From Oceanicaulis sp. BBD 1991-10 (GTDB taxonomy: Bacteria; Pseudomonadota; Alphaproteobacteria; Caulobacterales; Maricaulaceae): a stretch of 64,000 nt of DNA. Every line of letters begins with the position of its first letter. The first letter of the stretch is position 1. The notes beneath the pieces were generated by a model. That model was not told the origin of the DNA. It saw only the letters and a list, made by a program, of their open reading frames with translations, and did no database searches. The stretch is from NCBI GenBank assembly GCA_001657295.1, contig LYSW01000005.1:1-64000 (forward strand). Reading direction: 5' to 3'. The position numbers and the translations under genes were made by a program. Positions 27,595-45,661 of this stretch are shown here, one piece after another.

Positions 27595-27607
27595 TGAACT
27601 GCGTTCA
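27595..27607. promoter_or_regulatory. TGAAC-N3-GTTCA site 1 (TGAACTGCGTTCA)
   Basis: Exact inverted repeat 22 bp upstream of ATG 27630. Confidence 0.7.
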
Positions 27608-27629
27608 ATACATCAAGGGGAGGAGCGCC

Positions 27630-29414
27630 ATGGCGGAGTATGATCTCAAGATCACCGGCGGCGTCATTCATTCCGGCGAGGGCGGCGCGCCCGTCACCGG
27701 CGATGTCGGGATCAAGGCGGGCCGCATCATCGCTGTCGGCGAGGCGCCGGGCGGCGCCGCGGAGACGATCGACGCCGCAGGCTGCATCGTCACGCCCGGC
27801 TTTCTGGACGCGCACACCCATTATGACGGTCAGGCGACCTGGGACGACCGGCTCGAACCCTCCATCAAACATGGCGTCACCACTGCGGTGATGGGCAATT
27901 GCGGGGTCGGCTTCGCGCCGGTCCGGGCCAGCGATCACGAGCGCCTGATCAAGCTGATGGAGGGGGTGGAGGACATTCCCGGCACCGCGCTGGCGGAGGG
28001 GCTGACCTGGGAGTGGGAAAGCTTTCCCGACTATCTGGACGCGCTCGAGCGCACGCCGCGCACCATGGATATCGCCGCCATGGTCGGCCACGATCCGCTG
28101 CGGGTTTTCGTCATGGATGAGCGCGCCAGCTTCGATGCTCAGGCCAGCGACGAAGAAATCGCCAGGATGCGCGAGCTGGTGACGGAGGCGCTCGACGCCG
28201 GCGCCATCGGCTTCGCCACCGGCCGTTCCGATCTGCACCGCACCGCGGACGGGGAATGGACGCCCGCCTCCGAGGCGACCGCGAAAGAACTCGCCGGCAT
28301 CGCCGAAGCCTTCAAGGGCCGCCGCCACGGCGTCATCCAGGCCGTGTCCGATTTCGATCTGGAGCGCGACCAGGACAGATTCCCCGCCGAATGGGCGGTG
28401 ATCGAAGCCTATGTGAAGGCGGCGGGCGGGCGGCCCTTCTCCATCTCGGTCATGCAGCGCGATTTCGCGCCGGATCAGTGGCGGAAAATCCTCGCCGGTC
28501 TGGAAAAGCTCGACGGCGAAGGCTTCACCGTGCGCGCCCAGGTCGCCCCGCGCGCCATCGGGGTCTTCCTGGGCCTGCAATGCACCTTCCAGCCCTTCAT
28601 GGGCTATCCGGCCTATAAAGAGATCGCGCATCTGCCGCTCGACGAGCGCGTCGCGCTGATGAAGCAGCCAGGCTTCAAGGCCAAGATGCTGGCCCAGAAG
28701 TCCGACAAGCTCGCCGGGCCGGGAAGCTCCATCCCGCCGATCGCGGACTTGCTGATCGAGAATATGGAATTCGCCGCCGAAAAGCTCTTCACCCTGTCGG
28801 AAAATCCCGACTATGAGCAGCCGCCGGAAAGCGCCATCGCCGCCAAGGCGCGTGCGCGCGGGGTGTCGGTCTGGGAGCAGCTATACGACACGGTGATCGC
28901 CCGCGACGGGCGCGAGCTGATCTATCTGCCGATCTATAACTACACCGAGCTGAGCTATGAAAACGTCAAGGCGATGATGGATCATCCCCTGGCCATGATG
29001 GGCTTGTCGGACGGCGGCGCCCATGTCGGCACGGTCTGCGATGCGAGCTTTCCGACCTATCTGATGAGCTATTGGACCCGCGACCGCACCCGCGGCGACA
29101 AAATCCCGGTCGAACGGGCGGTGAAGATGCTGACCGCCGATATCGCCGATTATCTGGGCCTGTCCGATCGCGGCCGGATCAAGCCGGGCCTTAAGGCCGA
29201 TCTCAATGTGATCGACATGACAAAGCTGCGCCTGCACGCCCCGCGCCTGGTCCAGGACCTGCCCGCCGGCGGCCAGCGCCTTTTACAGGACGCGGACGGC
29301 TATCGCGCCACCATCGTCGCCGGCGAAGTGGTCGTGCGCGACGATGCGCTGACCGACGCGCGGCCGGGGCGCTTGGTGCGCGCCGGGCGCGAAGCGGCGA
29401 TGGCGGCGGAGTAG
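27630..29414 (+). CDS. amidohydrolase family, N-acyl-D-amino-acid deacylase-like
   Basis: GFLDAHTHYDGQATWD, MGNCGVGFAPVR, GLSDGGAHVGTVCDAS; RBS GGGGAGG before ATG 27630. Confidence 0.9.
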   Translation: MAEYDLKITGGVIHSGEGGAPVTGDVGIKAGRIIAVGEAPGGAAETIDAAGCIVTPGFLDAHTHYDGQATWDDRLEPSIKHGVTTAVMGNCGVGFAPVRASDHERLIKLMEGVEDIPGTALAEGLTWEWESFPDYLDALERTPRTMDIAAMVGHDPLRVFVMDERASFDAQASDEEIARMRELVTEALDAGAIGFATGRSDLHRTADGEWTPASEATAKELAGIAEAFKGRRHGVIQAVSDFDLERDQDRFPAEWAVIEAYVKAAGGRPFSISVMQRDFAPDQWRKILAGLEKLDGEGFTVRAQVAPRAIGVFLGLQCTFQPFMGYPAYKEIAHLPLDERVALMKQPGFKAKMLAQKSDKLAGPGSSIPPIADLLIENMEFAAEKLFTLSENPDYEQPPESAIAAKARARGVSVWEQLYDTVIARDGRELIYLPIYNYTELSYENVKAMMDHPLAMMGLSDGGAHVGTVCDASFPTYLMSYWTRDRTRGDKIPVERAVKMLTADIADYLGLSDRGRIKPGLKADLNVIDMTKLRLHAPRLVQDLPAGGQRLLQDADGYRATIVAGEVVVRDDALTDARPGRLVRAGREAAMAAE

Positions 29415-29513
29415 GGGCGGCGACTGCTGTTGCGACGCTGCGCCGCTCTCCGGCATTGGCGGAGAAAGCCCGCATCAATGGTACACTCTTCGTCTCATAC
29501 GAGGAGCTTCCCC

Positions 29514-30296
29514 ATGCCGACCAAACGCCACGGCGCGCCGAACTGGGTGGATTGCGCCACCACCGATCTGGCCGCCGCCGAAGCCTTCTACGCCAAGATG
29601 TTCGGCTGGACCTCGGAGCGGATTTCCGGCTCCGGCGGCTCGGTCTACGCCCTGCAATATCTGGACGGCGAACGGGTCGCCGGCCTGTTTGAACTCCCCG
29701 AGCCCGTGCGCGCCATGGGCGTGCCGCCCCACTGGGAGACCAGTATTGAGGTCGCCGATCTGCCTCTTGCGCTCGACAAGGTCCGCGCCGCCGGCGGGGC
29801 GGTGCTGGACGGTCCGGCGACCGAGCCGGGCGTGGGCGACATGGCCACGGTTCAAGACGTCGTCGGCGCCGTGCTGCGCTTCTGGACGTCCGAGCCCGCC
29901 CATGGCGGCGAGGTGTTCAACATCCCCGGCGCGCTGAGCTGGAACGAGCTGGCGACCGGCGATCCTGAGGCGGCGGCGAAATTCTATGCCGAGGTGCTCG
30001 GCGTCGAGATTGAAGCGATGGAGGGCCCGGTTCCCTATCGGGTGATGAAGATCGGCGGTGAACCGGTGGCCGGGATTTTGACCAAGACGCCGGAGATGGG
30101 CGATTTCCCCGATGCCTGGGACGTGTATTTCGCCGTCGAGGATGTCGATGCGGCGATCGCCAGGGCCGAAGCCGCGGGCGCGACGGTCCTGAAGCCGGCC
30201 TTTGACGTCGCCGGCGGCGGTGCGCGCATGGCCGTGCTTCAAGATCCCCAAGGCGCCGTGTTCGAAGTGATCAAGATGGCCGAGGGCGCGGTCTAG
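29514..30296 (+). CDS. VOC family protein with two glyoxalase domains
   Basis: Two repeats (NWVDCATTDLAAAEAFYAKMFGW; SWNELATGDPEAAAKFYAEVLGV). Confidence 0.85.
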   Translation: MPTKRHGAPNWVDCATTDLAAAEAFYAKMFGWTSERISGSGGSVYALQYLDGERVAGLFELPEPVRAMGVPPHWETSIEVADLPLALDKVRAAGGAVLDGPATEPGVGDMATVQDVVGAVLRFWTSEPAHGGEVFNIPGALSWNELATGDPEAAAKFYAEVLGVEIEAMEGPVPYRVMKIGGEPVAGILTKTPEMGDFPDAWDVYFAVEDVDAAIARAEAAGATVLKPAFDVAGGGARMAVLQDPQGAVFEVIKMAEGAV

Positions 30297-31051
30297 CGCA
30301 CATAGCTCGCCCCGTTGACGTCGAATGTCGCACCGGTCGCGCTTTCGCAGGCGCCGGAGAGCAGGAACGCGCAGAGCCGGCCGAGCTCTTCGGGCTTGGC
30401 CATGTTCCCATAAGGAACTTCCGCAAGCGCCCTGGCGCGGTCTTGGGGGTGCTGGGGCGCCATCTCGGTGTCGATCCAGCCCGGCGCGATGGCGTAGGCG
30501 AGCAGGCCGCGTCCGGAATAGGCGCGCGCCAGCGTTTTGATCAGCGCGATCAGACCGGCCTTGCTGGCGGCGTAGGCGGGGTGGTCGGCGTCGTCGCCGC
30601 GATGGCCCGCGCGCGAAGAGATCGCCACCAGGGCGCGGGTCTCGCGGCCATCAATCCAGTCGCGGGCGGCCAGGCGCGCCAGGTCCGCGCAGCTTTGCAG
30701 ATTGATCTGCAGCGTGCGCGACCAGTTCCGGGTCCAGACATCGGCCGCGTCATCGACGCCGGCGGCTTCGAAAACGCCGTGATTAAGCACCAGGCCGTGG
30801 ATGGCGCCGCCTGCGATCGCGCTCGCCCGGCTCCAGGCGTCCGCCGCCGCGCCCGGCATTGCGAAATCCGCGCCGACGAGGCCCAAGGCTTGGTCGCCCA
30901 GCTGTTTTGCGACGGCGTCGGCGGCCTCGCGATTTTTGGCGTAGCCCAGGATCACCCGCCCGCCCGCCTGGGCGATCTCGCGCGCGACGCCGGCGCCGGC
31001 GCCGCGCGAGGCCCCGGTGACGAAGAGGGTTTTGTCGGTGAGGGGAAGCAT
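30293..31051 (-). CDS. SDR family oxidoreductase
   Basis: FVTGASRGAGAGVAREIA (TGxxxGxG), YAASKAG catalytic motif. Confidence 0.9.
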   Translation of the reverse strand: MLPLTDKTLFVTGASRGAGAGVAREIAQAGGRVILGYAKNREAADAVAKQLGDQALGLVGADFAMPGAAADAWSRASAIAGGAIHGLVLNHGVFEAAGVDDAADVWTRNWSRTLQINLQSCADLARLAARDWIDGRETRALVAISSRAGHRGDDADHPAYAASKAGLIALIKTLARAYSGRGLLAYAIAPGWIDTEMAPQHPQDRARALAEVPYGNMAKPEELGRLCAFLLSGACESATGATFDVNGASYVR

Positions 31052-31257
31052 GGGACGTCCTTGAGGTGTTCGTTTCATCCTGACGAAAGTCAGGCCCCGG
31101 TCAAAGCGCAGCCATAGCTGGGTCCTGAATCAAATTCACGATGACGCATCGATGTGCGCCGCGTCGCTCTCCGTGCGAAGGTCGGGGGGCGGCGCCATTG
31201 AGCGACAAGCCCGTCATCGCCTGGGTCCGGCCTCCACCGGGAGACGACCGATGGAGG

Positions 31258-33591
31258 CTATTGCGGCCTGAGCGTCAGCACCCGCGCCCCGTCCGGCGGC
31301 GCGTCCACGTCCCAGTCGTCGCGGATTTCGAAAAACTCCCCGGCCGCCCAGCGCTCCGCCAGATCGCCGTGGTGGGGCGACAGGGGATGGCCCGACTGCC
31401 CCGGCGCATGCATGAACAGCGAGTTGTTGAGATCGGAGAGATCGTAGATCGCGCGCATGGAGGCGGCGTGGAACACGTCATAGGTGCCGGACCGATAGCT
31501 GAAATGGGCGACATTCACCGTCGAGCCGTCGCCGGGAATGCCGACGCGGTTTTCAAACATGCCGCCGATCAGCGGCAGCGCGCCCAGCGGGTGGTCGAAA
31601 TCGGCCTCGTGCACCGCGCCCCAGCGCCAGGTGTCGATATTGCGGCCGAAGGCGTCCGCGGTCTCCGCCAGGGCGGCGTCCAGCGCCAGACCGGCGGTGA
31701 TGGCGCAGGTCTCCATGTCCGGCGTGCGAACATCGTCGCACCAGGCCGCGGCGTCGCCGATCAGGACGTTTTCGACGAAGGCGCGGCGCGGCGCGTTGAA
31801 GACGCGGGCCGCCTCCGGGCCAAGCTCGTCTTCCCACAGCGCGCTGGACAGCACGCGCAGCCAGGCCGACACGATCAGCGCTTCCGGCCCGTCCGCATCC
31901 ATTGAGCCGTCCCAGCTCTCCAGGCGCGCCAGCGCTTCCGCGCCCAGCTGGCTTTCCGGTTCAGCCGCCATCAGGGCGGGGCGAAGGCGGGCGAAATGCT
32001 CGCTGACCACATCCATTTGAAGCTCGGCGAAGCTGGCGAGATCATGCTGTACGCGGGCGTTGAGCCGCGCTTCGATGCGCGGCGCGCGATAAACCCCGTA
32101 ACTGCCGGGCAGGGGATAGGGATAGGCCTCGCCCGCCACCAGATTATTGCCCGATGCGATCAACCCGCCGGCGGGGTTCACCACGCGCGGCAATTCCTCA
32201 AACGGGACAAAGCCGGTCCATTCGCCGGTGTCCGCGTCGCGGATCGGCAACAGGCCGGCGGTGGAATAACCGATCGTGCCGTCCACATGGGCGTAATGCA
32301 TGTTCTGCATAGGGACCGTGTAGCCGCGCGAGGCCTCCACAAAAGCGTCCCAGCTGTCCGCCAGCATCAGGCCGTAGGCCGCATCCGCGCCGCGATTGCC
32401 CGGCTGGTTCAGGGTCGAGCGCTGGATCACCACCAGGTCCGGGTGAAAGGCGGTGAGGTCGAACCAGTCCGCGGACAGGATCGGACCCTGATCGGTTTCG
32501 CGCACGGTGATCTCCACCGGGGTGCGCGATCCGGCGACGGTGATCTGCTCGACCCGCTCACGGATAACGACGCTGGCCGGATCGCGTTCGACCAGGTCGA
32601 TGACGTCAAAGCCGGTATTGGTGAAGCCCCAGGCGCTGTAGGCATTGCGGCCCAGAATGACGAAGGGCGTGCCCGGCGCGGTCACGCCGATCACCGGCCC
32701 GCTCTCCAGATTGAGCCGCACATAATACCAGATGGAGGGGGTCGACAGGCCCAGATGCGGATCGTTCGCCAACAAAGGCGCGCCGGTCTCGGACCGGTCC
32801 GCGGAAACCACCCAGGCGTTTGAGCCGGGCAGATTGTCCGGCTGCGCCAATGCGTCAGACCGGGGCGCGCCGCCCGGCGGCGCCAATTCCTGGGACTGGA
32901 TGTCGGCGAAGGCGGCGCGGACATCTTCGTCTTTCAGCGTCGTCGGCCCCCAGTCGGGATAGCCGGCCAGGAATTGCTCCAATTGAGCCTCGTCGAGCAG
33001 ATCGCGCAGCCGCGCGCGCTCCACATCCGATCCCCGGCCGGCGGCCAGATCATCGGCGAAGCTGATCATGACGGCGGCGCTGTCGGTCACCGTCCATGGC
33101 GCCGGCGCTTGACGCAGGATGGCGTATTCCGGCGCCACCGCGCCTTCAGCAAGACGGGCGTTGACCCCGGCGACATAGGCGTCGACCGCGGCGCGGGTCT
33201 CGTCCGACATCGTGGCCTGAAGCGTCTCGGACAGCCGCGCATAGCCCAGCGTCCGGGTCCGGGCGTCGGCGCGCACATAGTCCGGGCCGAACATCTCCGA
33301 TAATCGGCCGCGCACATAGCGGCGCACGAGATCCATCTGGAAAAAGCGCTCCGAGGCGTGGGTGTAGCCCAGAGCGTAGAAAACCGCGTCGTCGCTCTCG
33401 CCGAAAATATGGGCGACGCCATTTTCATCGCGGACGATTTGAGCCGCGCCCGGCGCGCCCGCCAGGACCACCTCGCCGGTCTCCTGGGGTTTGGAGGCGT
33501 GGAAACGCTCCACCAGCCAGGCGCCGGCGGCGAGAAGCCCCAACAGGATGATCGCCAGGACCGCGATCCCGGCGCGCATGAAGAATGACAT
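31258..33591 (-). CDS. penicillin acylase family protein
   Basis: RDENGVAHIFGESDDAVFYALGYTHASERFFQMDLVRR; GSNAWVVSADRSETGAPLLANDPHL. Confidence 0.93.
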   Translation of the reverse strand: MSFFMRAGIAVLAIILLGLLAAGAWLVERFHASKPQETGEVVLAGAPGAAQIVRDENGVAHIFGESDDAVFYALGYTHASERFFQMDLVRRYVRGRLSEMFGPDYVRADARTRTLGYARLSETLQATMSDETRAAVDAYVAGVNARLAEGAVAPEYAILRQAPAPWTVTDSAAVMISFADDLAAGRGSDVERARLRDLLDEAQLEQFLAGYPDWGPTTLKDEDVRAAFADIQSQELAPPGGAPRSDALAQPDNLPGSNAWVVSADRSETGAPLLANDPHLGLSTPSIWYYVRLNLESGPVIGVTAPGTPFVILGRNAYSAWGFTNTGFDVIDLVERDPASVVIRERVEQITVAGSRTPVEITVRETDQGPILSADWFDLTAFHPDLVVIQRSTLNQPGNRGADAAYGLMLADSWDAFVEASRGYTVPMQNMHYAHVDGTIGYSTAGLLPIRDADTGEWTGFVPFEELPRVVNPAGGLIASGNNLVAGEAYPYPLPGSYGVYRAPRIEARLNARVQHDLASFAELQMDVVSEHFARLRPALMAAEPESQLGAEALARLESWDGSMDADGPEALIVSAWLRVLSSALWEDELGPEAARVFNAPRRAFVENVLIGDAAAWCDDVRTPDMETCAITAGLALDAALAETADAFGRNIDTWRWGAVHEADFDHPLGALPLIGGMFENRVGIPGDGSTVNVAHFSYRSGTYDVFHAASMRAIYDLSDLNNSLFMHAPGQSGHPLSPHHGDLAERWAAGEFFEIRDDWDVDAPPDGARVLTLRPQ

Positions 33592-33614
33592 GTCCGACCC
33601 CCTCTGGTCCGGCC

Positions 33615-35048
33615 TTAGCCGGCCTGCAATTTCTTGAAGAATTCGAAGATTTTCCCGTAGGGCGGCCGGACCAGGCGGCTCGGATGCCAGACCGGCGCCT
33701 CGAACACCGCGCGCTCATGGGTGAAGGTCAAAAAGCCGTACTCGCCATGATAGGCGCCCTGGCCGGAGGGGCCGACGCCGCCAAAGGGCAGGTCCTCGAC
33801 CGACAGGTGCAGCATGGGAATATTCACCGCGGCGCCGCCGGACAGGGTCCGAGCCAGCAAGCGGCGTGCGGTCATTTTGGACTTGGCGTAGACGTAAAGG
33901 GCCAGCGGCCGGTCGCGCTCATTGATGAAATTCGCCGCCTCGCTCATCCCGTCATGGGGCAGCACCGGCAAAATGGGGCCGAAAATCTCTTCGGTCATCA
34001 TTTTCGAGTCGAGCGGCGGGTCGATGACCACGGTCGGCGGAAAAATGCGGGTGTTGCCGGCCTTGGCGGGATCGAAATCGGCCTGCAGCACGGCGGCCCC
34101 GGCGCTGCGCACCTCCTCCACCATTTCGCTGAGGCGCTGATGATGACGTTCGGAGACGATGGCGGTGTAGTCCGCATTGCCGGCGACGTCCGGCCACATG
34201 CGGTCCGCCTCCTTCATCACCGCGTCGCCGAACGCGGCCTGAGAGCCGCGCGGGACCAGGGCGTAGTCCGGCGCCACGCAGGTCTGTCCAGCGTTGAAAT
34301 ACTTGCCCCAGGCGATCGTCTTGGCGGCCTCGGCGATGTCGAAATCAGGCGCCACGACGGCCGGCGACTTGCCGCCCAGCTCCAGCGTCACCGGGGTCAG
34401 ATTCTCCGCAGCCGCCTTGGCGACGATCCGGCCCACATGGGTCGAGCCGGTATAGAAAAGATGGTCGAACGGCAGGGCGGAAAACGCCGCGGACACATCA
34501 GGACCGCCTTCCACGACCGCCACATGATCCTCGCTGTAGAGCTCGGCCAGGACGTCACGCAGCAGCTCGGCGGTGCGCGGCGTGAATTCGCTGGGCTTGA
34601 TCATAACCCGGCACCCCGCGCCAAGCGCGGCCACCAATGGGGCGAGCGCCAGCTGCATGGAATAATTCCATGGCGAGATGATGCCGACCACGCCCTTGGG
34701 CTCGCGGCGGACATAGGCCCGTCCCGGCGCCAGCGTCATCGGCACCGGCTTGCGCTTGGCCGCCGCCCAGCGTTCCAGGTGCTGGCGGGTATGCTTGGCC
34801 GTGGCGATGGTGAAGCCGGCTTCTGCAATGGCGGTTTCGGCGGCGCTGCGCCGGGAGAAATCCGCATCGATCGCCTTGGCGAAGTCTTCGCCGCGGACTT
34901 TCACCATCTCCTCGATCTTTTTCAGATCGGCCTTGCGCTGATCCAGCGGCCGATGGCGCTCGTTTTCAAACGCCGCCTTTTGAGCGGCGAAGAGCGTCTC
35001 CAGGCGCTGTCGGCTTGCATTGGGGCCGGGGGCGAGTTCAGCGGTCAT
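33615..35048 (-). CDS. aldehyde dehydrogenase, coniferyl aldehyde dehydrogenase-type
   Basis: GVVGIISPWNYSMQLALAPLVAALGAG, VTLELGGKSPAVV, FNAGQTCVAPDY. Confidence 0.9.
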   Translation of the reverse strand: MTAELAPGPNASRQRLETLFAAQKAAFENERHRPLDQRKADLKKIEEMVKVRGEDFAKAIDADFSRRSAAETAIAEAGFTIATAKHTRQHLERWAAAKRKPVPMTLAPGRAYVRREPKGVVGIISPWNYSMQLALAPLVAALGAGCRVMIKPSEFTPRTAELLRDVLAELYSEDHVAVVEGGPDVSAAFSALPFDHLFYTGSTHVGRIVAKAAAENLTPVTLELGGKSPAVVAPDFDIAEAAKTIAWGKYFNAGQTCVAPDYALVPRGSQAAFGDAVMKEADRMWPDVAGNADYTAIVSERHHQRLSEMVEEVRSAGAAVLQADFDPAKAGNTRIFPPTVVIDPPLDSKMMTEEIFGPILPVLPHDGMSEAANFINERDRPLALYVYAKSKMTARRLLARTLSGGAAVNIPMLHLSVEDLPFGGVGPSGQGAYHGEYGFLTFTHERAVFEAPVWHPSRLVRPPYGKIFEFFKKLQAG

Positions 35049-35075
35049 GTTCGGCTCCTTTGAAAGGCGGGTCCG

Positions 35076-36674
35076 CTAGGCGTCGGCGAGGATCATAGCC
35101 GCCGCGCGTGTCGCAATCATCATGGTCGGCGCATTGGTGTTGCCGCCGACGACGGCCGGCATCACGGAAGCGTCGACCACGCGCAGGCGCTCGACCCCGC
35201 GCACCTTGCAGCGCGGATCGACCACGGCCATCTCGCCGCTCCCCATCGCGCAGGTGGAGGTGGGGTGATAGAGCGTCTCCGCCCGCGCCCGCATGTCCGC
35301 TTCCAGCGCGGCGCGGTCGCCGGCCGCATCGGAGGGCAGGTCGAGCTCCTTGAATTCGCCGTCAAAGGCGTCCGACAATAGAATGTCCCGGGCGATCTCC
35401 AGGCAGTCGGTCATCACCTCCACGTCTTCCTCGTGGTCAAGATAATTGGGATCGATGACGATGTGATCATTGGGGTCCGCGCTCGCCAGCGTCAGCCGGC
35501 CGCGGCTCTTGGGGTAGAGATGGCAGGCATGCAGGCTCATGCCGTGGCCGGTCAGCGTCTCCCGGCCGTGGGGGCTCGCCTGAGCCGGAATGAAGACCAG
35601 CTGGATGTCGGGCAGATCCCCGGCGCGGCTGGATTTCACGAAGCCGCAGCCTTGCACCGGATTGACGGTGAAATTGCCGGTCCCGGTCATCGCCCATTGC
35701 AGGACGTCGCGCACGGTGGCTGGAAATTTCTGCAGCGAATAGCCGATCGAGGTCGGCGTTTTGGTTTTCGCCCGCGCCATGATGTCGAGATGGTCCTGCA
35801 GGTTTTCGCCCACCCCGGGCAGATCAAGCTCCACGGAGATGCCGTGTTCTCGCAGATGACCGGCCGGACCGATCCCGGACAGCATCAGCGTGTGGGGCGA
35901 GTTCAGCGCGCCGCCGGAGATGATGACCTCCTTGGCGGCGATGACCTCCTTGCGTTCGCCGTCCATCTCGATCTCAACGCCCTGGGCTTCGCCGTTTTCG
36001 ATCAGGACGCGCCGGACCATGGCGCCGGTGACGACGGTCAGATTCGGCCGCTGCATGGCGGGCTTTAAGAAGGCGTCCGCCGCCGAGCAGCGCTTGCCGC
36101 CCTTCTGGGTGACCTGATAAACGCCGAAGCCTTCCTGCGCCGCGCCGTTATGGTCCGGATTCTCCGGAATCTGGCGCCGGCGGCAGGCCTCGTAATAGCG
36201 CTCGGTCAGCGGATTGAGCGGTTCGATGGATTTCACATTCAAGGGACCGCCCTTGCCGTGCCAGGGCGGGCCGTGATTTTCATTATTCTCAACCTCGATG
36301 AAGGCCTTCAACGCCTCGCCGCCGGACCAGCCCTCGCAGCCGAACTCATCCCGCCAGCTGTCGTAATTCTCCAGCACGCCGCGCATGTAATGCATGGCGT
36401 TGATCGAGGAGGAGCCGCCCAGCGTCTTGCCGCGCGGCCAGTAGAGTTTGCGGTTGTTCAGCTGTTTTTGCGGTTCCGTCCAATAATCCCAGTTGATCGA
36501 GGAATCCGTGATCGTGAACTGGAGCAGCATCGGCGTCTTGATATTGGTCTTATTGTCCGACCCGCCCGCCTCCAGCACGCAGACGCTGGTGCGGCCATCG
36601 GCTGAGAGCCGGTCGGCGAGCACGCAGCCGGCCGAGCCGGCGCCGATGATCACATAGTCGAAGACCTGGCTCAT
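35076..36674 (-). CDS. GMC family oxidoreductase (choline dehydrogenase-like)
   Basis: [58 protein letters not shown]-terminal HPTSTCAMG. Confidence 0.95.
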
Positions 36675-37984
36675 CCGCCGCCACCGCTTTCGCCGCCGCC
36701 TGCGGTCTCAGCTTCCGCCTCCTCGTCCGCGACGTCCTCCGCGATCACGCGAGCCGCCGCCTCACCCCGCCTGTCCGCGAGCGGGCTGACATGTTCGGAG
36801 ACGGCGCGGAAGAAGGCGTAGGCTTCGGGCAGCTTGTCGGACCAGACCGGGTCGCCGGCGTTTTGCGCGATCACCACGCCGCGGCGGCGGTCGACCCAGA
36901 TATACTGGCCGAACACGCCCGCGGCGTAGAACTCGCCGTCATAGTCCTGCGGGATCCAGAAATGCAGGCCGTAGCCGCGGCCCTCATAGCGGGTCGCGCC
37001 CGGCTCCTGCCAGGGCGCGCGGGGCGTGGTGGCGTCTTCGCTCCAGCCTTCGGGCAGCAAGCGCTCGCCGTTCCAGACGCCGTCCGTGCGGTAGAACTCG
37101 CCGAAGCGGGCATAGTCTTCGCTTCTAGCCTGCAGGCAGCAATACCCCACGGCGACGCCGTCTTCGCCCACCGTGTTCTGCAGCCAGGTGGCGTTCGCGC
37201 TCATGCCCAGCGGCGTCCAGAGCTGGTCGGAGACCACGTCGACCAGACGACCGCCATAGACGGCGCGGGCCACGGCGGCGAGCACGTGGGAGTTGGGGCT
37301 GGTGTAGTGCAGGTCCTGGCCGGGCGCGCGGTTGCGTTCATATTCGCCGACCATGGCGTCGATATTGCGGCCCAGGATAAAGGCGTTGAAGAAGAGCGGA
37401 CGGATATCGCTGGGATTGCCGGGCGAATAGACTTCCGTGAAGTCGACCCCGGCCGACATCATCAAGAGGTGGCGCAAACTGGTTTCGCCGTAGGCCGTGC
37501 CTTCAAATTGCGGCGCATAGCGCTGGGCGGGATCATCCAGGCTGGCGATCAGGCCGTCCTCGAGCGCCTTGGCGATCAGCGTGGCCACCACGGATTTGGC
37601 GACCGACCAGCTGGTGAACAGCGTGTCCTCGTCCGCACCCTGGTAAAAAGCCTGATCGACCACGGCGCCGTCGCGCATCACGGTCAGACCGATGATCTGC
37701 GCGCGCGCCGCATAGTCGGCGAGCAGGACGGTCTCGCCGTTGAATTCGAAGCTGTCGGGAAAGGCGCCTTCGGCCCGCGGTAGCGCGGTCGGCGCACCCG
37801 CCGCGACCACGCTCGCGGGCAGGATTTCGTCCATCATCTGGAAGGTCGCCGGATATTCTTCCGGCACGTCCAGCGCGCGGACCTTGGCCGGCGAATATTC
37901 CGACCAGGGCCGGTAATACCAGCCGGCGCCGGCGATCGCAGCCGCCAGAATAATGGCCGCGAGCGCGAAAATGATGCGCGTCAT
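36671..37984 (-). CDS. serine hydrolase (beta-lactamase/esterase fold)
   Basis: SWSVAKSV (SxxK), YTSPNSH; 4-bp overlap with GMC start. Confidence 0.85.
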
Positions 37985-38050
37985 CACAATGTCCTCCCCG
38001 CAAGCCGCCAGCTGTCCTATTCGCAGCCGATCGACTCCATGGAAGGGGAG

Positions 38051-38063
38051 TGAACACCGTTCA
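38051..38063. promoter_or_regulatory. TGAAC-N3-GTTCA site 2 (TGAACACCGTTCA)
   Basis: Exact inverted repeat 66 bp upstream of the serine hydrolase/GMC/ALDH/acylase gene run. Confidence 0.7.
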
Positions 38064-38091
38064 GCGGGTGTTGGCCAGACGGCGTGTGCGG

Positions 38092-39249
38092 CTATTGGGC
38101 CGGGGTGATCCTGAGCAGCGTCCCGCCGTCGCCGTCGGTCAGCACCCAAAGCGCGCCGTCCGGGCCGCTCGCCGCCTGACGGATCCGGGCGCGGTCGGCC
38201 AGGAAGAGGCGGTTTTCGCCGATCACCGCGCCGTCGGCGTCGAGATCGATATGGTGCAAGGCCTGGCCGGCCAGCGCCGCCACGAAGAGATCGCCGGTCC
38301 AGTCGGCGAACAGATCGCCGTCATAAACTGCAAGGCCGGCAGGCGCGATGGAGGGGGTCCAGCCCAGCACCGGCGCAGCGAAGCCTTGCTCGGCATGGTC
38401 TGTGAAGGGGCTGATGCGCGCGCCGTTATAGTCGCGGCCCTCGGTGACGATCGGCCAGCCATAATTGGCGCCGGCTTCAATCCGGTTCAGCTCGTCTCCG
38501 CCCGCCGGCCCATGCTCGTGGGACCAAATCACGCCGCGCCGGGCGTCGAAGGCGATCCCCTGAACATTGCGATGGCCGTAGGAATAGACAAAGGCGGCCA
38601 ATCCGCCTTCGTTGAAAAACGGATTGTCCGGCGCCGGAGCGCCGTCGGGCGTGAAGCGCAAAATCGTCCCCAGATGGTTGTCGCGCAGCTGGGCTTGTTC
38701 GCGATAGGCGAAGGCGTCGCCTGTCGTCAGCAGCAGCGTGCCGTCCGGCAGGAAGGCGAGGCGGCCGCCATAATGGGCGTCGGTGTCGCGTTCCGGGCTG
38801 GCGGCGAATATGGTTTCGCCGTCCACCAGCGCCTCGCCGTCAAACCGGGCGCGGAACACCGCCGTCGTGTTCGCGGCCGCATCGCCCGCCGAATAGGTCA
38901 GATAGACGATCCGGGTGGCGGCGAAATCCGGCGCCGCTTCAACTTCCATCAGTCCGCCCTGGCCGGCGAAGAAGGAGGCGGGCGCGCCCTCGACCGGCGC
39001 GTTGGCCAAAACCCCGTCGCGGATCAGCCGCAGAGCGCCGTCGCGCTCGGTCACCAGAATATCGCCGCCCGGCAGGAAGGTCAGATCCCAGGGAAAGGAC
39101 AATCCCTCGGCGACGGTTTCGACCTGATAGAGCTCCGGGGATATCTCCGGCGCCGCAGAGCGGTCCTGCGGACCGTCGCACGCTGCGAGCGTTCCGGCGA
39201 TGATCGCACCGGCCGCCGCGCGGGCGCCAAGGGATGCATGCTGGGTCAT
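38092..39249 (-). CDS. PQQ-dependent sugar dehydrogenase (soluble aldose dehydrogenase-like)
   Basis: LSFPWDLTFLPGGDILVTERDGALRLI, YGHRNVQGIAFD, HEHGPAGGDELNRIEAGANYGWP. Confidence 0.92.
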   Translation of the reverse strand: MTQHASLGARAAAGAIIAGTLAACDGPQDRSAAPEISPELYQVETVAEGLSFPWDLTFLPGGDILVTERDGALRLIRDGVLANAPVEGAPASFFAGQGGLMEVEAAPDFAATRIVYLTYSAGDAAANTTAVFRARFDGEALVDGETIFAASPERDTDAHYGGRLAFLPDGTLLLTTGDAFAYREQAQLRDNHLGTILRFTPDGAPAPDNPFFNEGGLAAFVYSYGHRNVQGIAFDARRGVIWSHEHGPAGGDELNRIEAGANYGWPIVTEGRDYNGARISPFTDHAEQGFAAPVLGWTPSIAPAGLAVYDGDLFADWTGDLFVAALAGQALHHIDLDADGAVIGENRLFLADRARIRQAASGPDGALWVLTDGDGGTLLRITPAQ

Positions 39250-39357
39250 GACCGTCTCCTGATCCATAAAACGGCGCGCCTCCGGGTTTGCCGGCGGCCC
39301 TCAAGCGGGCATTCTACCGATCAGGCCGCGAAACGCACCTTGAAGGGGAGCTGTGAG

Positions 39358-39801
39358 ATGGGATTTTTGCGCGTGGTGATCGGCTTCATCGCCGCTGTGC
39401 TGGCGCTTGCTGTGCTGGGCGTGATCGCCCAGTCGGGCTTCGTGCTCGCCGCCTTGGGCGATATCGGCGCGGACATCGGGATCGGCGCCGCTCTGGGCAT
39501 GATCGTGGACGACCTGCTGGGATTCGGGCCGGTCTATGGCGGACTGATCGCCGTCGGCTTGTTGATCGCTCTGCCGTCGGCGGCGCTGGTTCACCGCTTC
39601 AGCAGATTGAATCGGACCCTGGTTTTCGCCATCGCCGGCGCGACCTGCATGCTGGTCATGTTGCTGGCGATCGAAAACTTCCTGTTCGGTGTCCAGCTGG
39701 TCGCCGGCGCGCGCACGGCGGCGGGCTTCGTCGCCCAGATGCTCGCCGGCGCGGCGGCCGGCTGGATCTTCACGCGCCTCACCCCGGCCCCCGCGCGCTG
39801 A
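39358..39801 (+). CDS. hypothetical membrane protein
   Basis: 147-aa hydrophobic ORF, followed by a terminator. Confidence 0.6.
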   Translation: MGFLRVVIGFIAAVLALAVLGVIAQSGFVLAALGDIGADIGIGAALGMIVDDLLGFGPVYGGLIAVGLLIALPSAALVHRFSRLNRTLVFAIAGATCMLVMLLAIENFLFGVQLVAGARTAAGFVAQMLAGAAAGWIFTRLTPAPAR

Positions 39802-39810
39802 GGGGCCCGA

Positions 39811-39845
39811 AAAAACCCGCCGCCGAACGGTCGGCGACGGGTTTT
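39811..39845. terminator. bidirectional Rho-independent terminator
   Basis: AAAACCCGCCGCCGA-ACGG-TCGGCGACGGGTTTT, one mismatch, A/T flanks on both sides, between convergent genes. Confidence 0.8.
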
Positions 39846-39870
39846 GTCGTGGTGCTGTAAGGCTTGAGAT

Positions 39871-40863
39871 TCAGTCGACGCGCCGGCGTTGGGGCGCGCC
39901 GGGATGCAGCGTGTTGGACGCCACCGGCGTGCTCTCCGAATCGCGGCCGCCGCCATGGGGCGCATCGCCCTGATCGACATGACGGCGCGAGCGGATATGG
40001 CTGCGCGGCATCTGGTGGTCGTCGGCCGACGACTGATGGTGATGCGACCGCGGCGGCGCCGGATGCGGATGACGCGGAATCTCAATGTCCTGGCATTCCA
40101 CAAGCCGCCACTCGAAGCGCTCGCCGTGGATCAGCTCATAGCGCGCGATCTGCTCGGTGCGCTGCGGCGACATGGAGCGTGAGACCTGGCCGTCTTCAAC
40201 CAGCACATGCACCGTATAGCTCGCCTGCTCGGCCGGGATCGGGATTTCTTCCACGGTGGCCGGGCGCACCAGCACTTCGCGGCTGATCGTGGCGTATTCC
40301 GGATCAACCGGGATCTCTCGGATCTGCGCCGGGTGGGTCACCACGGTGCGGTGAATGGTTTCGTACACCGCCGGGTCCTCGATCAGGCACCAGATCTCTC
40401 CGGTCTCCGGATCATGGCGGACCTGGCGCGCGCCCTCGTGATAGCCGCGCACCCATTTCAGCTGCGCTTCGCGCACCAGAATGCGTTCGGACACGGTTTG
40501 GGTGCGGGCCGGTTCAACTTCGTATCGGACATAGGAGGGACGAATCTGAACCTGCTCGGTCACGGTCTCATAGACCGGCTCGGTGACGCGGTAGCGCATT
40601 CCCGCTTCGCGCGACACATAGCTCAGGCTCCGGCGCTCCAGGCGCGGGTCGGTGACGTCGAAGATTTCATACCCGTCCGCGACGACGATGGTCTGCATGA
40701 CGGTTTCGTATTCAGCATCGATACGCACGAGCTGATAGCAATCGCCGATCTGCGCATCGGGCAGGTCGACCCGCATGCCCATCGGGTGCGGTGACGCGGC
40801 GGTTGCGGCCGGCGCCATCAGCGACGCGGCGACGGTCCCAAGAAGTGCTTTCCGAAGAGCCAT
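39871..40863 (-). CDS. exported hypothetical protein with repeated 'YETVxxxVxVxPA' modules and His/Pro-rich C-terminus
   Basis: Signal peptide; modules at AEYETVMQTIVVADGYE, PVYETVTEQVQIRPSYV, ARTQTVSERILVREAQL, AVYETIHRTVVTHPAQI, PEYATISREVLVRPATV. Confidence 0.7.
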   Translation of the reverse strand: MALRKALLGTVAASLMAPAATAASPHPMGMRVDLPDAQIGDCYQLVRIDAEYETVMQTIVVADGYEIFDVTDPRLERRSLSYVSREAGMRYRVTEPVYETVTEQVQIRPSYVRYEVEPARTQTVSERILVREAQLKWVRGYHEGARQVRHDPETGEIWCLIEDPAVYETIHRTVVTHPAQIREIPVDPEYATISREVLVRPATVEEIPIPAEQASYTVHVLVEDGQVSRSMSPQRTEQIARYELIHGERFEWRLVECQDIEIPRHPHPAPPRSHHHQSSADDHQMPRSHIRSRRHVDQGDAPHGGGRDSESTPVASNTLHPGAPQRRRVD

Positions 40864-41170
40864 TATCCCCCCCTTCAATATATCCTGCGCTAAAGCGCGG
40901 ACAGTCCACGTTTAAGCGTCGAACCCGCCCCTCAGCTGAGTTCAGCTTACGACGTTAACGGGTTTTGAGAATTTGTTAATCCTATTCTTCCCAGCGGCCG
41001 GGAAATGCGCGGTCCTATCGATGGTTGTGGCCATTCCGCCACAATTTGTAAGGAGACCGCGGTCTTCGCATGACAAATGCGCAGAATGCGGCATAAGCTG
41101 TGCATCAAGCAGGCAGCCGGCGCCGACAAGCCGTCGCCGCGTCCATATTTCTCAGGGGGAGGAAGCCCGA

Positions 41171-43921
41171 ATGAATCGTTCGATCAAAGCAGTTGCGCTT
41201 GGCGCAACGGCCCTTGCCGCCGGTGTGGTCAGCGCCGGCGCTTTTGCACAGTCGCCGGACGTCATCACCGTGACCGCGCAAAAGCGCGAGCAGACTCTGC
41301 AGGAGACGCCGGTCTCCGTCGCCGTCGTCACCGACACCGCCATCGAACAATCCCAGATCCGCGACGCGGCCGACCTGACCACCCTGGTGCCGTCCTTGCG
41401 GGTTGCTGAATTCGCCGCTTCCTCCAACACCCAGTTCACGCTGCGCGGCGTGGGCACCAGCTCGTTCAACCCGGGCCTTGAGCCTTCGGTCGGCGTCTTC
41501 GTCGACGGCGTGTACCGCCCGCGCGCAGGTGCGGCGATCAACGATTTGCTGTCCATCGAGCGCGTCGAAGTCATCCGCGGTCCGCAATCGACTCTGTTCG
41601 GCCGCAACACCCCCGCCGGCGTGGTGAGCTTCATCACCAAGGAGCCGGAATTCGTCTTCGGCGCGGACGCGGAGCTGACCATCGGCAATTACGGTCAGCT
41701 GGTCACCAAGGGCACGGTCACCGGACCGCTCAACGATTCCGAGACCCTGGCGTTCCGCCTGGACGCCACCAGTCACTCCAACACCGGCTATATCGACAAC
41801 GAGTCGCCGCGCGCTCAGGTGACCGAAATCAATAACCGGGATCGTCAGAATTACCGCGCCCAGCTGCTCTGGCTGCCGGACGACAACACCGAGGTTCGCA
41901 TCATCGCGGACTATGGCCAGATCGACGAGAATTGCTGCGCCGCGCCGTTCGGATTCTACGACCCGATCGACCAGGGCGCGCTGGTCGCGCTGGGCGGCAC
42001 GGCGCTGCCGGCGGATCCGTTCGACGGCCGCATGGCGGTGGACGGTTTCGTGAACACGGAGCTGGACACGTCGGGCATCTCGGCCCAGATCGACCGCGAT
42101 TTCGGGAATTTCACCTTCACCTCGATCACCGCCTATCGCGGCTATGACGAGGCGCAGAATATCGACGCGGACTTCTCCGATCTCGATCTGGTCAACCCGC
42201 GCAATATCGACAATGAATACACCAGCTTCACCCAGGAGTTCCGCTTCACCTCCACGGGCGGGAATTTCGTCGACTGGATGGGCGGGCTGTTCTTCTACGA
42301 CAATGACCTGACATTCAATCAGGACCTGGGTTACGGCGTGGACGCCAAGGCCTTCTTCGATCTCGCCTCCCAGGCCGCGGTCGCGGATATCGTCGCCAGC
42401 ATCAACGCCGCCTCGCCGGGCACTTTGCCGCCCAACGCCGGCGGGATCACCGTCCTGGACTTCTTCGTCGGCGCGAACAACGCCACCGGCGTCGTCGGCG
42501 TGCCGACCCTGCCGGCCGCCGGCTATATCGCGCCGGGAACGACGGTTCTGGAAAACTACCAGTATGACACCCAGTCCTGGTCGGCCTTCGGGCAGCTCGA
42601 CTTCAACCTGACCGATCGCTTCACGCTGACGGTGGGCGCGCGCTATACCGAAGAAGACAAGGAAATGGTCACGGACGTGACCGTGAACGATCCGATCTCG
42701 GCGTTCACCTTCACGGATCTGGCGACGAATCTGCGCTTCATCAATCCGGCGCTGTGCCCGGCCTTCCCGAACGGCAATAGCTGTCCCTTCCTTCTGCCGA
42801 CCCTACTCGCGGGCGCGGCGGCGACGGACGCGGCGTTCGCCGCCCAGCTGGAGGGCGCGCTGGCCGCATCGGGCATTCCCGGCGCCACCCTGGCCAACCC
42901 GCTGGTCGTCTACGACCCTGCGGTCGCGGCCTTCCTGGCGAACACGCCGTTCAACCTCCTGAACGACTTCTCCGCCTTCCAGAATTTCTCGCCGGTCAAT
43001 TCCAGCCAGTATCCGACCGAGCGGTCCGACGACAATCTGTCCTACAACATCATCCTGAGCTATGACGTCTCGGACACCTTGAACATCTACGCCAGCTATT
43101 CGACCGGCTTTAAGCCCGGCGGCTTCTCGCTCACCTATGAAGCGGTGGAGACCGGCGTTTTCGAATTTGAAGACGAGACGGCGAGCTCCTGGGAGATCGG
43201 CGCCAAGGGCTCGTTGCTCGACGGTTCGATGGTTTACGCCGTCACCTATTTCAACCAGGAGATCGAAGACTTCCAGTCTGAGAACTTCGTCGGCAACGGC
43301 TTCGCGCTCGACAACGCCGGTTCGATCGAAGTCAGCGGCATCGAGTTCGACGTCCAGTGGGCGGCGACCGAGCGGCTCTTCCTGACGCTGGGCGGCACCT
43401 GGCTGATCGACAACAAGTATGGCGAATACGAGTTCGCGCCTTGCCCCGACTCCTCGCCGCTGCTGGGCCCGGTCTATAATCCGGCTGACCCGCTGTTCGC
43501 GGCCTGCGCCAGCCCCCGCGTCAATAATCGCGGCGTGGCGGGCACGTTCAACGATCTGTCCGGCGTGGACCGTGGTTCGTCTGATCTGGTGGCGGCGTTC
43601 ACGGCCACCTACACGCACCCGGTCGGCGACAGCATGGAGCTGAGCTGGCGCGGTGAGGCGAACTACACCTCCGAGTTCGCGCTGGTGACCGGCCTCGATC
43701 CGCGTCCGGTGGCCAATCAGGACGACTTCACGCTCTACAACGCGTCAGTCACGCTGGGCGCTGAAGACCAGGCCTGGGCGCTGCAGTTGTGGGGCCGCAA
43801 CATCACCGATCAGGAATACGTCAAAGGCGGGTTCCCATCGGTGGGGTATCTGGGCGCCAGCTTCAACAATTATCCGGGCGACCCCCAGACCTATGGCCTG
43901 ACCCTGCGCCTGCGCTACTAA
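41171..43921 (+). CDS. TonB-dependent receptor
   Basis: Signal peptide, TonB box/plug (DVITVTAQKREQTLQETPVSVAVV, GVFVDGVYRPRAGAAINDLLSIERVEVIRGPQSTLFGRNTPAGVV), C-terminal LRLRY. Confidence 0.95.
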   Translation: MNRSIKAVALGATALAAGVVSAGAFAQSPDVITVTAQKREQTLQETPVSVAVVTDTAIEQSQIRDAADLTTLVPSLRVAEFAASSNTQFTLRGVGTSSFNPGLEPSVGVFVDGVYRPRAGAAINDLLSIERVEVIRGPQSTLFGRNTPAGVVSFITKEPEFVFGADAELTIGNYGQLVTKGTVTGPLNDSETLAFRLDATSHSNTGYIDNESPRAQVTEINNRDRQNYRAQLLWLPDDNTEVRIIADYGQIDENCCAAPFGFYDPIDQGALVALGGTALPADPFDGRMAVDGFVNTELDTSGISAQIDRDFGNFTFTSITAYRGYDEAQNIDADFSDLDLVNPRNIDNEYTSFTQEFRFTSTGGNFVDWMGGLFFYDNDLTFNQDLGYGVDAKAFFDLASQAAVADIVASINAASPGTLPPNAGGITVLDFFVGANNATGVVGVPTLPAAGYIAPGTTVLENYQYDTQSWSAFGQLDFNLTDRFTLTVGARYTEEDKEMVTDVTVNDPISAFTFTDLATNLRFINPALCPAFPNGNSCPFLLPTLLAGAAATDAAFAAQLEGALAASGIPGATLANPLVVYDPAVAAFLANTPFNLLNDFSAFQNFSPVNSSQYPTERSDDNLSYNIILSYDVSDTLNIYASYSTGFKPGGFSLTYEAVETGVFEFEDETASSWEIGAKGSLLDGSMVYAVTYFNQEIEDFQSENFVGNGFALDNAGSIEVSGIEFDVQWAATERLFLTLGGTWLIDNKYGEYEFAPCPDSSPLLGPVYNPADPLFAACASPRVNNRGVAGTFNDLSGVDRGSSDLVAAFTATYTHPVGDSMELSWRGEANYTSEFALVTGLDPRPVANQDDFTLYNASVTLGAEDQAWALQLWGRNITDQEYVKGGFPSVGYLGASFNNYPGDPQTYGLTLRLRY

Positions 43922-43950
43922 GCCGGCAGGGTGACGCCAAACAAGACGAG

Positions 43951-43984
43951 CGGCGCCGGAGCAATCCGGCGCCGTTTCTCTTTA
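43951..43984 (+). terminator. Rho-independent terminator downstream of TonB-dependent receptor
   Basis: CGGCGCCGGA-GCAA-TCCGGCGCCG then TTTCTCTTTA. Confidence 0.8.
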
Positions 43985-44023
43985 CCCCCGCCCTGCGGCG
44001 CCGGCGCGCTTGAATCTCGTCCG

Positions 44024-44036
44024 TGAACGGCGTTCA
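44024..44036. promoter_or_regulatory. TGAAC-N3-GTTCA site 3 (TGAACGGCGTTCA)
   Basis: Exact inverted repeat 8 bp upstream of ATG 44045. Confidence 0.7.
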
Positions 44037-44044
44037 TTGCGGCC

Positions 44045-44500
44045 ATGAGCGATCTGGTCACCATTATCGTCGTTCTGGGCGCGTCGGCTCTGTCGATCGG
44101 CCTGCTGGTCGCTTTGAACACGTTTCTGGGCGGCTGGACGCCGTCGCGTCTGGGCAGCCTTGAGCGCGCCGCCGAGCGCATCAAGCTGGACGTCATGGAC
44201 TTCGACCCGAGCCCGAACGGCGCTCTGGACGCGGATAGATCCGCGGCGCTGGTCCTGGACCGCAGCGCCCATCGCCTCGGCCTCGCCGTGTGCCTGGGCG
44301 ATCGCATCGCGGTGCGGGGGTTGCGGCCCGGCGAGCTCGCCGGCGTCGGCGCGTCGGGGGCCGAGCTGGTGCTCAGACTTGACGATTACACCCTGCCCAA
44401 GGTGACCTTGCGTCTCGCCAGCGCCGAACAGGCGTCCCATTGGGAGGCCGTGCTGGCGGACTTCACTCCCGCTTCCAGACCCGGCGCCGCCCATGCCTGA
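44045..44500 (+). CDS. hypothetical protein with N-terminal membrane anchor
   Basis: ORF; N-terminal TM; overlaps the sterol desaturase start by 8 bp. Confidence 0.6.
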   Translation: MSDLVTIIVVLGASALSIGLLVALNTFLGGWTPSRLGSLERAAERIKLDVMDFDPSPNGALDADRSAALVLDRSAHRLGLAVCLGDRIAVRGLRPGELAGVGASGAELVLRLDDYTLPKVTLRLASAEQASHWEAVLADFTPASRPGAAHA

Positions 44501-45416
44501 GCTTCCCAACCCGATTTATTTCGCCATCCCGGGCTTTGTCGCGCTGGTGATCGCTGAAATGGTCTACGCCCGGGCCACCGGCCGCGCGCAATACGAGCCC
44601 CGCGACACGGCCGCCAGCCTGATCATGGGGCTCGGCAACACCGTTTCCGGCGTACTCCTGGGCGGGATCGCGGTGTTCTGGTTCACTCTGATCGAGCCTT
44701 ACGCCCTCTTGGACATCGGCTGGGCCTGGTGGGCCTTCGTGCTCGCCTTCGTGCTGGATGATTTCGTGTATTATTGGAGCCACCGCTTCGCCCATACGGT
44801 GCGCTGGTGGTGGGCCGATCATGTGGTGCACCACTCCAGCCAGCACTACAATCTCTCCACGGCGCTGCGTCAGCCCTGGCTGAACCCGCTGACCTTCAAA
44901 TTCATATTCTTCGGATCCTGGCTGGTCCTGCTAGGCTTTCCCCCTGCGATGATCGCCTTCGTCGGGGCGCTCAACCTGATCTACCAGTTCTGGATCCACA
45001 CCGAAGCGATCGGCAAAATGTGGGGTCCGTTCGAGGCGGTGTTCAACACGCCCAGCCACCACCGCGTCCACCACGCCACCAATCCGCGCTATCTCGACCG
45101 CAATTATGCCGGCGTCTTCATCATCTGGGACCGGATGTTCGGCACGTTCGAGCCCGAGCGCGAGGACGAGCCCTGCCGATACGGGATCGTGCGCAATCTG
45201 GGCACCTATAATCCGATCAAGATCTGCCTGCATGAATGGCTGGGCATCCTTAAGGACGTGCGGCGTTCAAAATCGATCCGCGAGGCGCTGGGCTATTGGC
45301 TCGGCCCGCCGGGCTGGTCGCCGGACGGCAGCCGCGACAGCTCGAAAATCCTCAAAGCCCGCTGGCAGGCCCGGCAGGACGCGGAGCACGACCCGGCCAA
45401 GGCGGCGGCCGAATAG
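44493..45416 (+). CDS. sterol desaturase/fatty acid hydroxylase family protein
   Basis: His motifs HRFAH, HHSSQHYN, HRVHH in a membrane protein. Confidence 0.93.
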   Translation: MPELPNPIYFAIPGFVALVIAEMVYARATGRAQYEPRDTAASLIMGLGNTVSGVLLGGIAVFWFTLIEPYALLDIGWAWWAFVLAFVLDDFVYYWSHRFAHTVRWWWADHVVHHSSQHYNLSTALRQPWLNPLTFKFIFFGSWLVLLGFPPAMIAFVGALNLIYQFWIHTEAIGKMWGPFEAVFNTPSHHRVHHATNPRYLDRNYAGVFIIWDRMFGTFEPEREDEPCRYGIVRNLGTYNPIKICLHEWLGILKDVRRSKSIREALGYWLGPPGWSPDGSRDSSKILKARWQARQDAEHDPAKAAAE

Positions 45417-45601
45417 GCCGGGCTTTAAGTGTCATGGCGCGGTTCTTCCGGGCCGCCCCTTGCCGGCCGGCCAGCGACAGTCGCCGCTTGGATCCCCCGG
45501 GCAAGCGGGGGATGACGGTGAGGCGCTGCGACGCCCCCCATGTCCGCCGTCCCAATACCCCTGCTTGCCAAGCGGGAATAATTTCCACACACTCGCAAAA
45601 G

Positions 45602-45614
45602 TGAACGCTGTTCA
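45602..45614. promoter_or_regulatory. TGAAC-N3-GTTCA site 4 (TGAACGCTGTTCA)
   Basis: Exact inverted repeat 47 bp upstream of ATG 45662. Confidence 0.7.
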
Positions 45615-45661
45615 CGCCGGCCCAAGACCGGCGGGACGGAAGGTATTGCGGGAGGAACGCC

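Follow-up and report, generated by a model that had tools for sequence, protein, structure and literature searches.

The 64,000-nucleotide window analysed here carries four exact copies of the palindrome TGAAC-N3-GTTCA. The first, TGAACTGCGTTCA (27595..27607), lies 22 bp before the start of an amidohydrolase gene (PF07969; 27630..29414, plus strand) whose cluster includes an SBF-family transporter (25971..26882, plus strand). The second, TGAACACCGTTCA (38051..38063), stands 66 bp before a minus-strand run that opens with a beta-lactamase-fold serine hydrolase (36671..37984) and comprises a GMC oxidoreductase (35076..36674), an aldehyde dehydrogenase (ALDH; 33615..35048) and a penicillin-acylase family hydrolase (31258..33591). 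The third, TGAACGGCGTTCA (44024..44036), is 8 bp from the start of the gene for a 151-residue hypothetical protein with a hydrophobic N terminus and no Pfam match (hyp151; 44045..44500, plus strand). Its partner is a member of the fatty acid hydroxylase/sterol desaturase superfamily (FA hydroxylase; 44493..45416, plus strand) with weak similarity to the ornithine-lipid hydroxylase OlsE. The fourth, TGAACGCTGTTCA (AAAGTGAAC..GTTCAC; 45602..45614), lies 47 bp before the gene for an AurF-like ferritin-fold diiron protein (45662..46783, plus strand). This protein matches PF11583 (E 4.3e-21) and contains the pattern E, ExxH, E, ExxH, the predicted ligands Glu110, Glu140xxHis143, Glu189 and Glu219xxHis222 being invariant in 16 sequences; its model is matched best by aldehyde-deformylating oxygenases (E 5.6e-5) and more weakly by CmlI and AurF. 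A TonB-dependent receptor (41171..43921, plus strand) lies within the conserved cluster and is not itself preceded by an operator in this genome. The positions of the four sites, their placement in intergenic DNA 8–66 bp before start codons and the identities of the downstream genes, all put forward in an earlier note on this DNA, are confirmed.

Four exact matches in the window compare with 0.05 expected, and none of 100 dinucleotide shuffles of the window contained four or more. No further copies appear in the 64 kb when one mismatch is allowed. The whole Oceanicaulis (Maricaulaceae) genome holds 11 exact copies against 2.5 expected (Poisson P ~7e-5), and a genome-wide search with the reversed control pattern gave no matches. 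All 11 copies are intergenic, an arrangement with a chance of ~3e-11 at a coding density of 0.89, so the motif is not equally common inside genes. The extended form of the operator is AAAGTGAACRNYGTTCACTTT. Its R-N-Y centre is a preference and not a rule: 27595 is the sole exact site in the genome that departs from it, and three congeners have CCG and CCA centres ahead of their amidohydrolase unit.

A repeated element or RNA hairpin is an alternative reading, in view of the palindromic form and the chance that transcript leaders include some of the copies. What the copies have in common is limited, however, to the palindrome and a few adjoining bases, while flanks and centre vary freely; the distance to the start codon ranges from 8 to >100 bp, and the palindrome tracks a single TetR gene. 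We rejected this explanation because the palindrome alone is conserved, and consider it extremely improbable. A search for a second copy of the operator at fixed spacing gave a consistent result at the pump promoter only.

That TetR gene encodes P0001 (G000:C87:24782-25498, minus strand), a TetR-family protein with PF00440 (E 1.8e-15) and TetR_C_33 (E 4.1e-7) domains. The earlier note had suggested from its size that the motif serves a TetR-type dimer, and the motif does fit such a dimer. The note saw no evident regulator in this DNA; the candidate can be identified on another contig. A perfect extended site, AAAAGTGAACRNYGTTCACTTTT, lies 28 bp beyond the end of the P0001 gene, between it and the genes of an RND efflux pump, in front of the latter. 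These encode an RND membrane-fusion protein (TIGR01730) and then a MexK/TriC-like RND permease, the nearest PDB entries to which are 6vej (a TriC-type pump) and MexK chains. The pump promoter also carries a conserved promoter-like block, directly adjoining the operator, that closes with a CTATAT box. Of 80 named homologous loci, 70 have a site (no more than one mismatch) 400 bp or less from the TetR gene, and the other 10 have no recognisable adjacent site; the reversed control occurred at 0/80. Members of the P0001 family share an almost unchanged recognition region, DYSPAALYKYF. Because the site follows the TetR gene in Maricaulaceae, autoregulation is not apparent in this family.

The number of sites also follows the regulator gene. 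Genomes with a P0001 orthologue have a mean of 7.8 sites and those without have 2.4 (P = 1e-8); outside the genus the means are 6.0 and 2.4 (P = 6e-5). R-N-Y sites number 0 in the one congener that lacks the TetR (G004) versus 7–10 in each of the other 14. G030, which has eight R-N-Y sites and no TetR, at first seemed exceptional, but these sites differ in their flanks and mostly in their centres (of the TGAACGWCGTTCA type), none of those examined is near a regulon gene, and they probably represent another motif. The diiron gene is preceded by a site in all 22 TetR-positive Maricaulaceae genomes that have the gene (19 exact, 3 with one mismatch) and in one of four genomes without P0001. These comparisons make it very probable that a TetR protein uses the motif as its operator, and there is a strong likelihood that this protein is P0001, a putative repressor of a genome-wide efflux and oxidation/hydrolysis regulon.

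It is unlikely that P0001 acts on the pump and tolC only and that another protein, such as a second TetR of the same specificity, occupies the window sites. G035 would fit such an arrangement, since no P0001 orthologue was found in this assembly (99% complete) and perfect sites nevertheless precede its diiron gene and RND pump; moreover, several TetR proteins bind similar 13-bp palindromes (BioQ, TGAAC-N3-GTTAC; RolR, TGAAC-N4-GTTCA; PMC9210681). Against this, the recognition region of P0001 has no close counterpart among the other TetR proteins of the genome (15/28 identical at best), and no exact site lies next to any of their genes. The number of motifs and the site at the diiron gene both go with the presence of P0001, and one extended consensus is common to pump and enzyme sites.

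P0001 as the common regulator is also consistent with the retention of sites at orthologous genes in related genomes, a point on which the earlier note had made its proposal depend. Alignments of the diiron and hyp151 loci show an invariant operator inside diverged flanks. The site of the serine hydrolase run is found at the orthologous place in all 14 genus genomes with the gene, with no more than one mismatch (3 exact, 11 as TGAAAGGTGTTCA), and in the Maricaulis-like genome G022. The site of the hyp151/FA hydroxylase pair is kept 8–10 bp before the start in seven of nine genus genomes examined. Across nine genus genomes, orthologous targets have the site at the diiron gene (9/9), a flavin monooxygenase (FMO; 9/9), hyp151 (7/9), TolC (7/9), a secreted 156-residue protein (6/9) and a Coq4-like protein (5/9). 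Outside the window, conservation is highest for the pump, TolC, FMO and Coq4-like protein targets, and the pump and TolC sites are retained in Henriciella-like G049, of a different family. The TolC gene of this genome lies apart from the pump genes, beside PCMT.

Conservation is poor for the MCP site (C11:44977) and likewise for the exact site at 27595, the weakest in the window, which is found at the same place only in this genome and its sister G003. There is some chance, though well short of even, that P0001 regulates from 44024, 45602 and 38051 and that 27595, with its exceptional centre, is an accidental or decayed match. Ten other congeners, however, have a site (0–1 mismatch) ~1.0–1.4 kb upstream of the amidohydrolase gene, which in two of them (G006 and G007) is located ahead of the unit's SBF gene. 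The excess of exact sites in the window also argues against an accident.

A P0001 homodimer would sit on the operator, overlapping or adjoining the core promoters of ~10 operons, and would there block RNA polymerase. Binding of a hydrophobic or amphipathic ligand would release the repressor and so switch on together the pump, the TolC channel and a set of oxidizing and hydrolysing enzymes. These would comprise the FMO, the AurF-like diiron protein, the FA hydroxylase pair and the Coq4-like protein, along with the serine hydrolase/GMC/ALDH/acylase and SBF/amidohydrolase units. Sequence comparison shows the motif, its positions and conservation, and its linkage to and co-occurrence with the TetR gene; the binding, repression, ligand and physiological role of P0001 are inferred. 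The earlier note proposed a local catabolic regulon. Several operons, the window loci included, do appear to belong together, but a purely local regulon is rejected by the seven of 11 sites that lie on other contigs. 'Catabolic' is likewise too narrow because the most conserved outside targets are the RND pump, TolC, FMO and Coq4-like protein; a regulon that couples efflux with oxidation or hydrolysis of some compound fits better.

Neither the motif string nor the regulon was found described in the literature searched, which also contained no regulon with diiron, FMO, FA hydroxylase and acylase operons. This appears to be a network for responding to chemicals, ordinary in its general type and previously undescribed. 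From four short palindromes, a candidate regulator and a list of operators and targets can be named for a seemingly undescribed regulon of a widespread marine group, tying orphan enzymes (the AurF-like diiron protein, FA hydroxylase pair, FMO and Coq4-like protein) to an RND/TolC pump. Much more tentatively, and with the odds against it, the single TetR of this Maricaulaceae regulon might sense a natural amphipathic compound, perhaps an algal acyl-amide or terpenoid, and switch on RND/TolC export together with a dedicated import and breakdown cluster. Such a cluster would consist of the TonB receptor, SBF carrier, amidohydrolase, acylase, serine hydrolase, GMC/ALDH, FA hydroxylase and AurF-like diiron oxygenase. 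If true, this would give the orphan oxygenase and Coq4-like families a physiological role.

MexL-MexJK(-OpmH) of Pseudomonas aeruginosa resembles the P0001 locus in that a TetR regulator is encoded alongside an RND pump, whose permease at the P0001 locus is TriC-/MexK-like. The MexJK pump is also served by a separately encoded TolC-type channel. MexL represses mexJK and has been called a local repressor (PMC9323910). P0001 shares with it a gene adjacent to a MexJK/TriC-like RND operon, but the neighbouring pump would not be essentially the sole target: the same operator also precedes tolC and several oxidative and hydrolytic operons, and this is conserved between species. Global control of many targets by a TetR whose gene neighbours a pump has been put forward elsewhere (PMC6790063), and P0001 is predicted to be another case. 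TipR-AcrAB-NodT of Caulobacter crescentus, from the same order of bacteria, is likewise a TetR repressor of an RND pump, inducible by diverse compounds, which acts through a divergent tipR/acrA operator and has several chromosomal targets (four by ChIP: acrAB-nodT/tipR, djlA, ccrM and qor-rho; PMC10754441). By description, only the RND pump corresponds between the two target sets; neither djlA nor ccrM is annotated beside any of the 11 genomic sites. BioQ of Corynebacterium glutamicum, a host of a different phylum, controls biotin genes, and no biotin synthesis or uptake gene is annotated next to the 11 sites; RolR of the same species governs resorcinol catabolism. The 13-bp operator of BioQ, a TetR-family protein, is nearly that of the consensus here and differs in the order of the last two right-arm bases; RolR, also of the TetR family, recognizes the same half-sites, TGAAC and GTTCA, with an N4 spacer and a second repeat, TTCAT-N2-ATGAA, as a pair of dimers (PMC9210681).

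TGAAC-N3-GTTCA occurs exactly four times in the window (0.05 expected), at 27595, 38051, 44024 and 45602, as the earlier note had it, with no one-mismatch copy anywhere in the window. All four sites lie between genes, as also claimed, 22, 66, 8 and 47 bp before starts called by a codon-model gene finder. In the whole genome (3.22 Mb; the window belongs to contig C83) the exact motif is found 11 times and its reversed version, used as a control, not once. All 11 are intergenic in a genome that is 89% coding, so the motif is not equally common inside genes. The best sites reach further, to AAAAGTGAACNNNGTTCACTTTT. The centre three bases are R-N-Y in 10 of the 11 sites, all except 27595 (TGC). 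Operators of TetR-type dimers are built in this way, in keeping with the earlier size argument, and the motif resembles the Corynebacterium operators of BioQ (TGAAC-N3-GTTAC) and RolR (TGAAC-N4-GTTCA) quoted in PMC9210681.

No regulator is evident in the window, as first remarked; a candidate was found outside it. P0001, a TetR-family protein, is encoded on contig C87 beside an RND pump, and a perfect extended site lies 28 bp past the end of its gene, preceding the genes for that pump's membrane-fusion protein and permease. The nearest PDB entries to the permease are a TriC-type pump (6vej) and MexK. By the closest named homologues of P0001, the genome belongs to Oceanicaulis in the family Maricaulaceae. 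The genome has 26 TetR_N matches, and none of the remaining TetR loci carries a P0001-like recognition region or an exact site. Orthologues of P0001 occur in 30 of 61 relatives, with which come 7.8 exact sites on average versus 2.4 without (P = 1e-8); outside the genus the means are 6.0 and 2.4 (P = 6e-5). Across the 61 relatives the reversed control is not enriched where an orthologue is present. Fourteen genomes of the genus, the window's own included, carry 7–10 R-N-Y sites each, and the only one without the TetR gene, G004, carries none. G004 is small (1.7 Mb) and has no diiron, serine hydrolase or amidohydrolase gene either. The TetR alignment yielded 80 named loci (from Maricaulaceae, Hyphomonas, Henriciella, Robiginitomaculum and others). 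In 70 of them a site, exact or one mismatch off, is found no more than 400 bp from the TetR gene, against 0/80 for the reversed pattern; at 10 it is absent. The site lies between TetR and pump in Maricaulaceae, and upstream of TetR itself in Hyphomonas and Henriciella.

About sixty sites in eight congeners were examined together with the adjoining genes and grouped with the sites of the window's genome. A site stands just upstream of the genes for an AurF-like diiron protein and a flavin monooxygenase in 9/9 genomes, a 151-residue hypothetical protein (hyp151; FA-hydroxylase gene behind) and TolC in seven each, a secreted 156-residue protein in six, a Coq4-like protein in five, a beta-helix protein in four and a thioesterase/LolA divergent pair in three. 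The pump site is often one mismatch off. In three congeners (L168, L150, L181) the operator lies between the Coq4-like gene and a divergent Dps/ferritin-like gene. A site before a chemoreceptor gene (G000:C11:44977; L014:3078), with a second 9/10 match 14 bp off, was not found in the eight congeners.

The diiron protein (45662..46783, + strand) matches PF11583, with all six diiron ligands invariant; its AlphaFold model (pLDDT 76) best matches aldehyde-deformylating oxygenases, and CmlI and AurF more weakly. A separate search found the site at this gene in 22/22 Maricaulaceae genomes with both P0001 and the gene (19 exact, 3 with one mismatch), versus 1/4 with the gene and no P0001 (one-sided Fisher about 0.0015). 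Upstream alignments of the diiron and hyp151 genes show the operator as an invariant block within diverged sequence, and the 38051 site, upstream of the serine hydrolase (36671..37984, − strand), holds the same place in 14/14 genus genomes with the gene (3 exact, 11 as TGAAAGGTGTTCA). At these three targets, then, the motif is conserved upstream of orthologues.

A relative, G035, keeps the sites at its diiron gene and RND pump, and no P0001 orthologue is detectable in its assembly, which leaves room for another regulator acting on them there. At its pump locus (L377:2555) the operator is perfect and a membrane transporter-like gene sits where the TetR gene would be. G030 (L384, L393–L395), which lacks P0001, has eight palindromes, of which most belong to the TGAACGWCGTTCA type; none of those read lies near P0001 targets, and they are probably the motif of another regulator. 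Overall, TGAAC-N3-GTTCA is very probably a real operator, that of a TetR regulon joining efflux and enzymes, whose content is new relative to the open-licence literature and whose kind is ordinary.

The 27595 site, before the amidohydrolase (27630..29414, + strand), is common only to this genome and its sister G003. In ten other congeners a site with 0–1 mismatches lies farther from the amidohydrolase, about 1.0–1.4 kb upstream; G006 and G007 have it directly before an SBF-family transporter gene, itself ahead of the amidohydrolase, and we infer the same for the other eight. G022, a relative whose TetR locus matches Maricaulis alexandrii, has the window's gene order (SBF, amidohydrolase, ALDH, GMC, serine hydrolase, TonB receptor, hyp151, FA hydroxylase, diiron), with sites preceding the serine hydrolase, hyp151, diiron and a beta-helix gene. 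So the local regulon first proposed is better seen as a conserved gene neighbourhood that forms one arm of a genome-wide regulon. Efflux is its most widely shared part: the sites at TetR-pump and at PCMT-TolC persist in the Henriciella-like G049, from another family. Conservation of the enzyme arm is highest in Maricaulaceae.

At the pump promoter a conserved promoter-like block ending CTATAT adjoins the operator. Maricaulaceae and Hyphomonadaceae both have a further, degenerate half-operator exactly 18 bp downstream of the first, measured between centres, at the promoter of the pump or of TetR (L192–L271, outside the window). The mean match at this spacing is 6.0 and 6.6 of 10 in the two families, and at the next best spacing 3.9 and 3.1. 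Two dimers may possibly bind there; the second half-operator is not consistent at the other targets. The hyp151 operator (44024–44036; gene 44045..44500, + strand) ends 8–10 bp before the ATG in 7/7 genomes having it, and about 10 bp ahead of the operator stands a conserved CTTG. It therefore probably overlies the promoter of a transcript without a leader; no clear ribosome site was seen in these seven. Operator positions at the pump and hyp151 promoters fit repression by occlusion, in which the TetR protein would repress and a ligand would release it. Judging by the enzymes and transporters, the ligand may be hydrophobic or amphipathic: an ester, an amide or an aromatic compound. Just past the diiron operator, at 45615–45640, lies an imperfect inverted repeat (CCTGC..AGACAGG type) retained in most congeners, and the diiron gene is followed at 46948–50239 by arginine-biosynthesis-looking genes (OTCase-like, N-acetylglutamate synthase/kinase-like, semialdehyde dehydrogenase).
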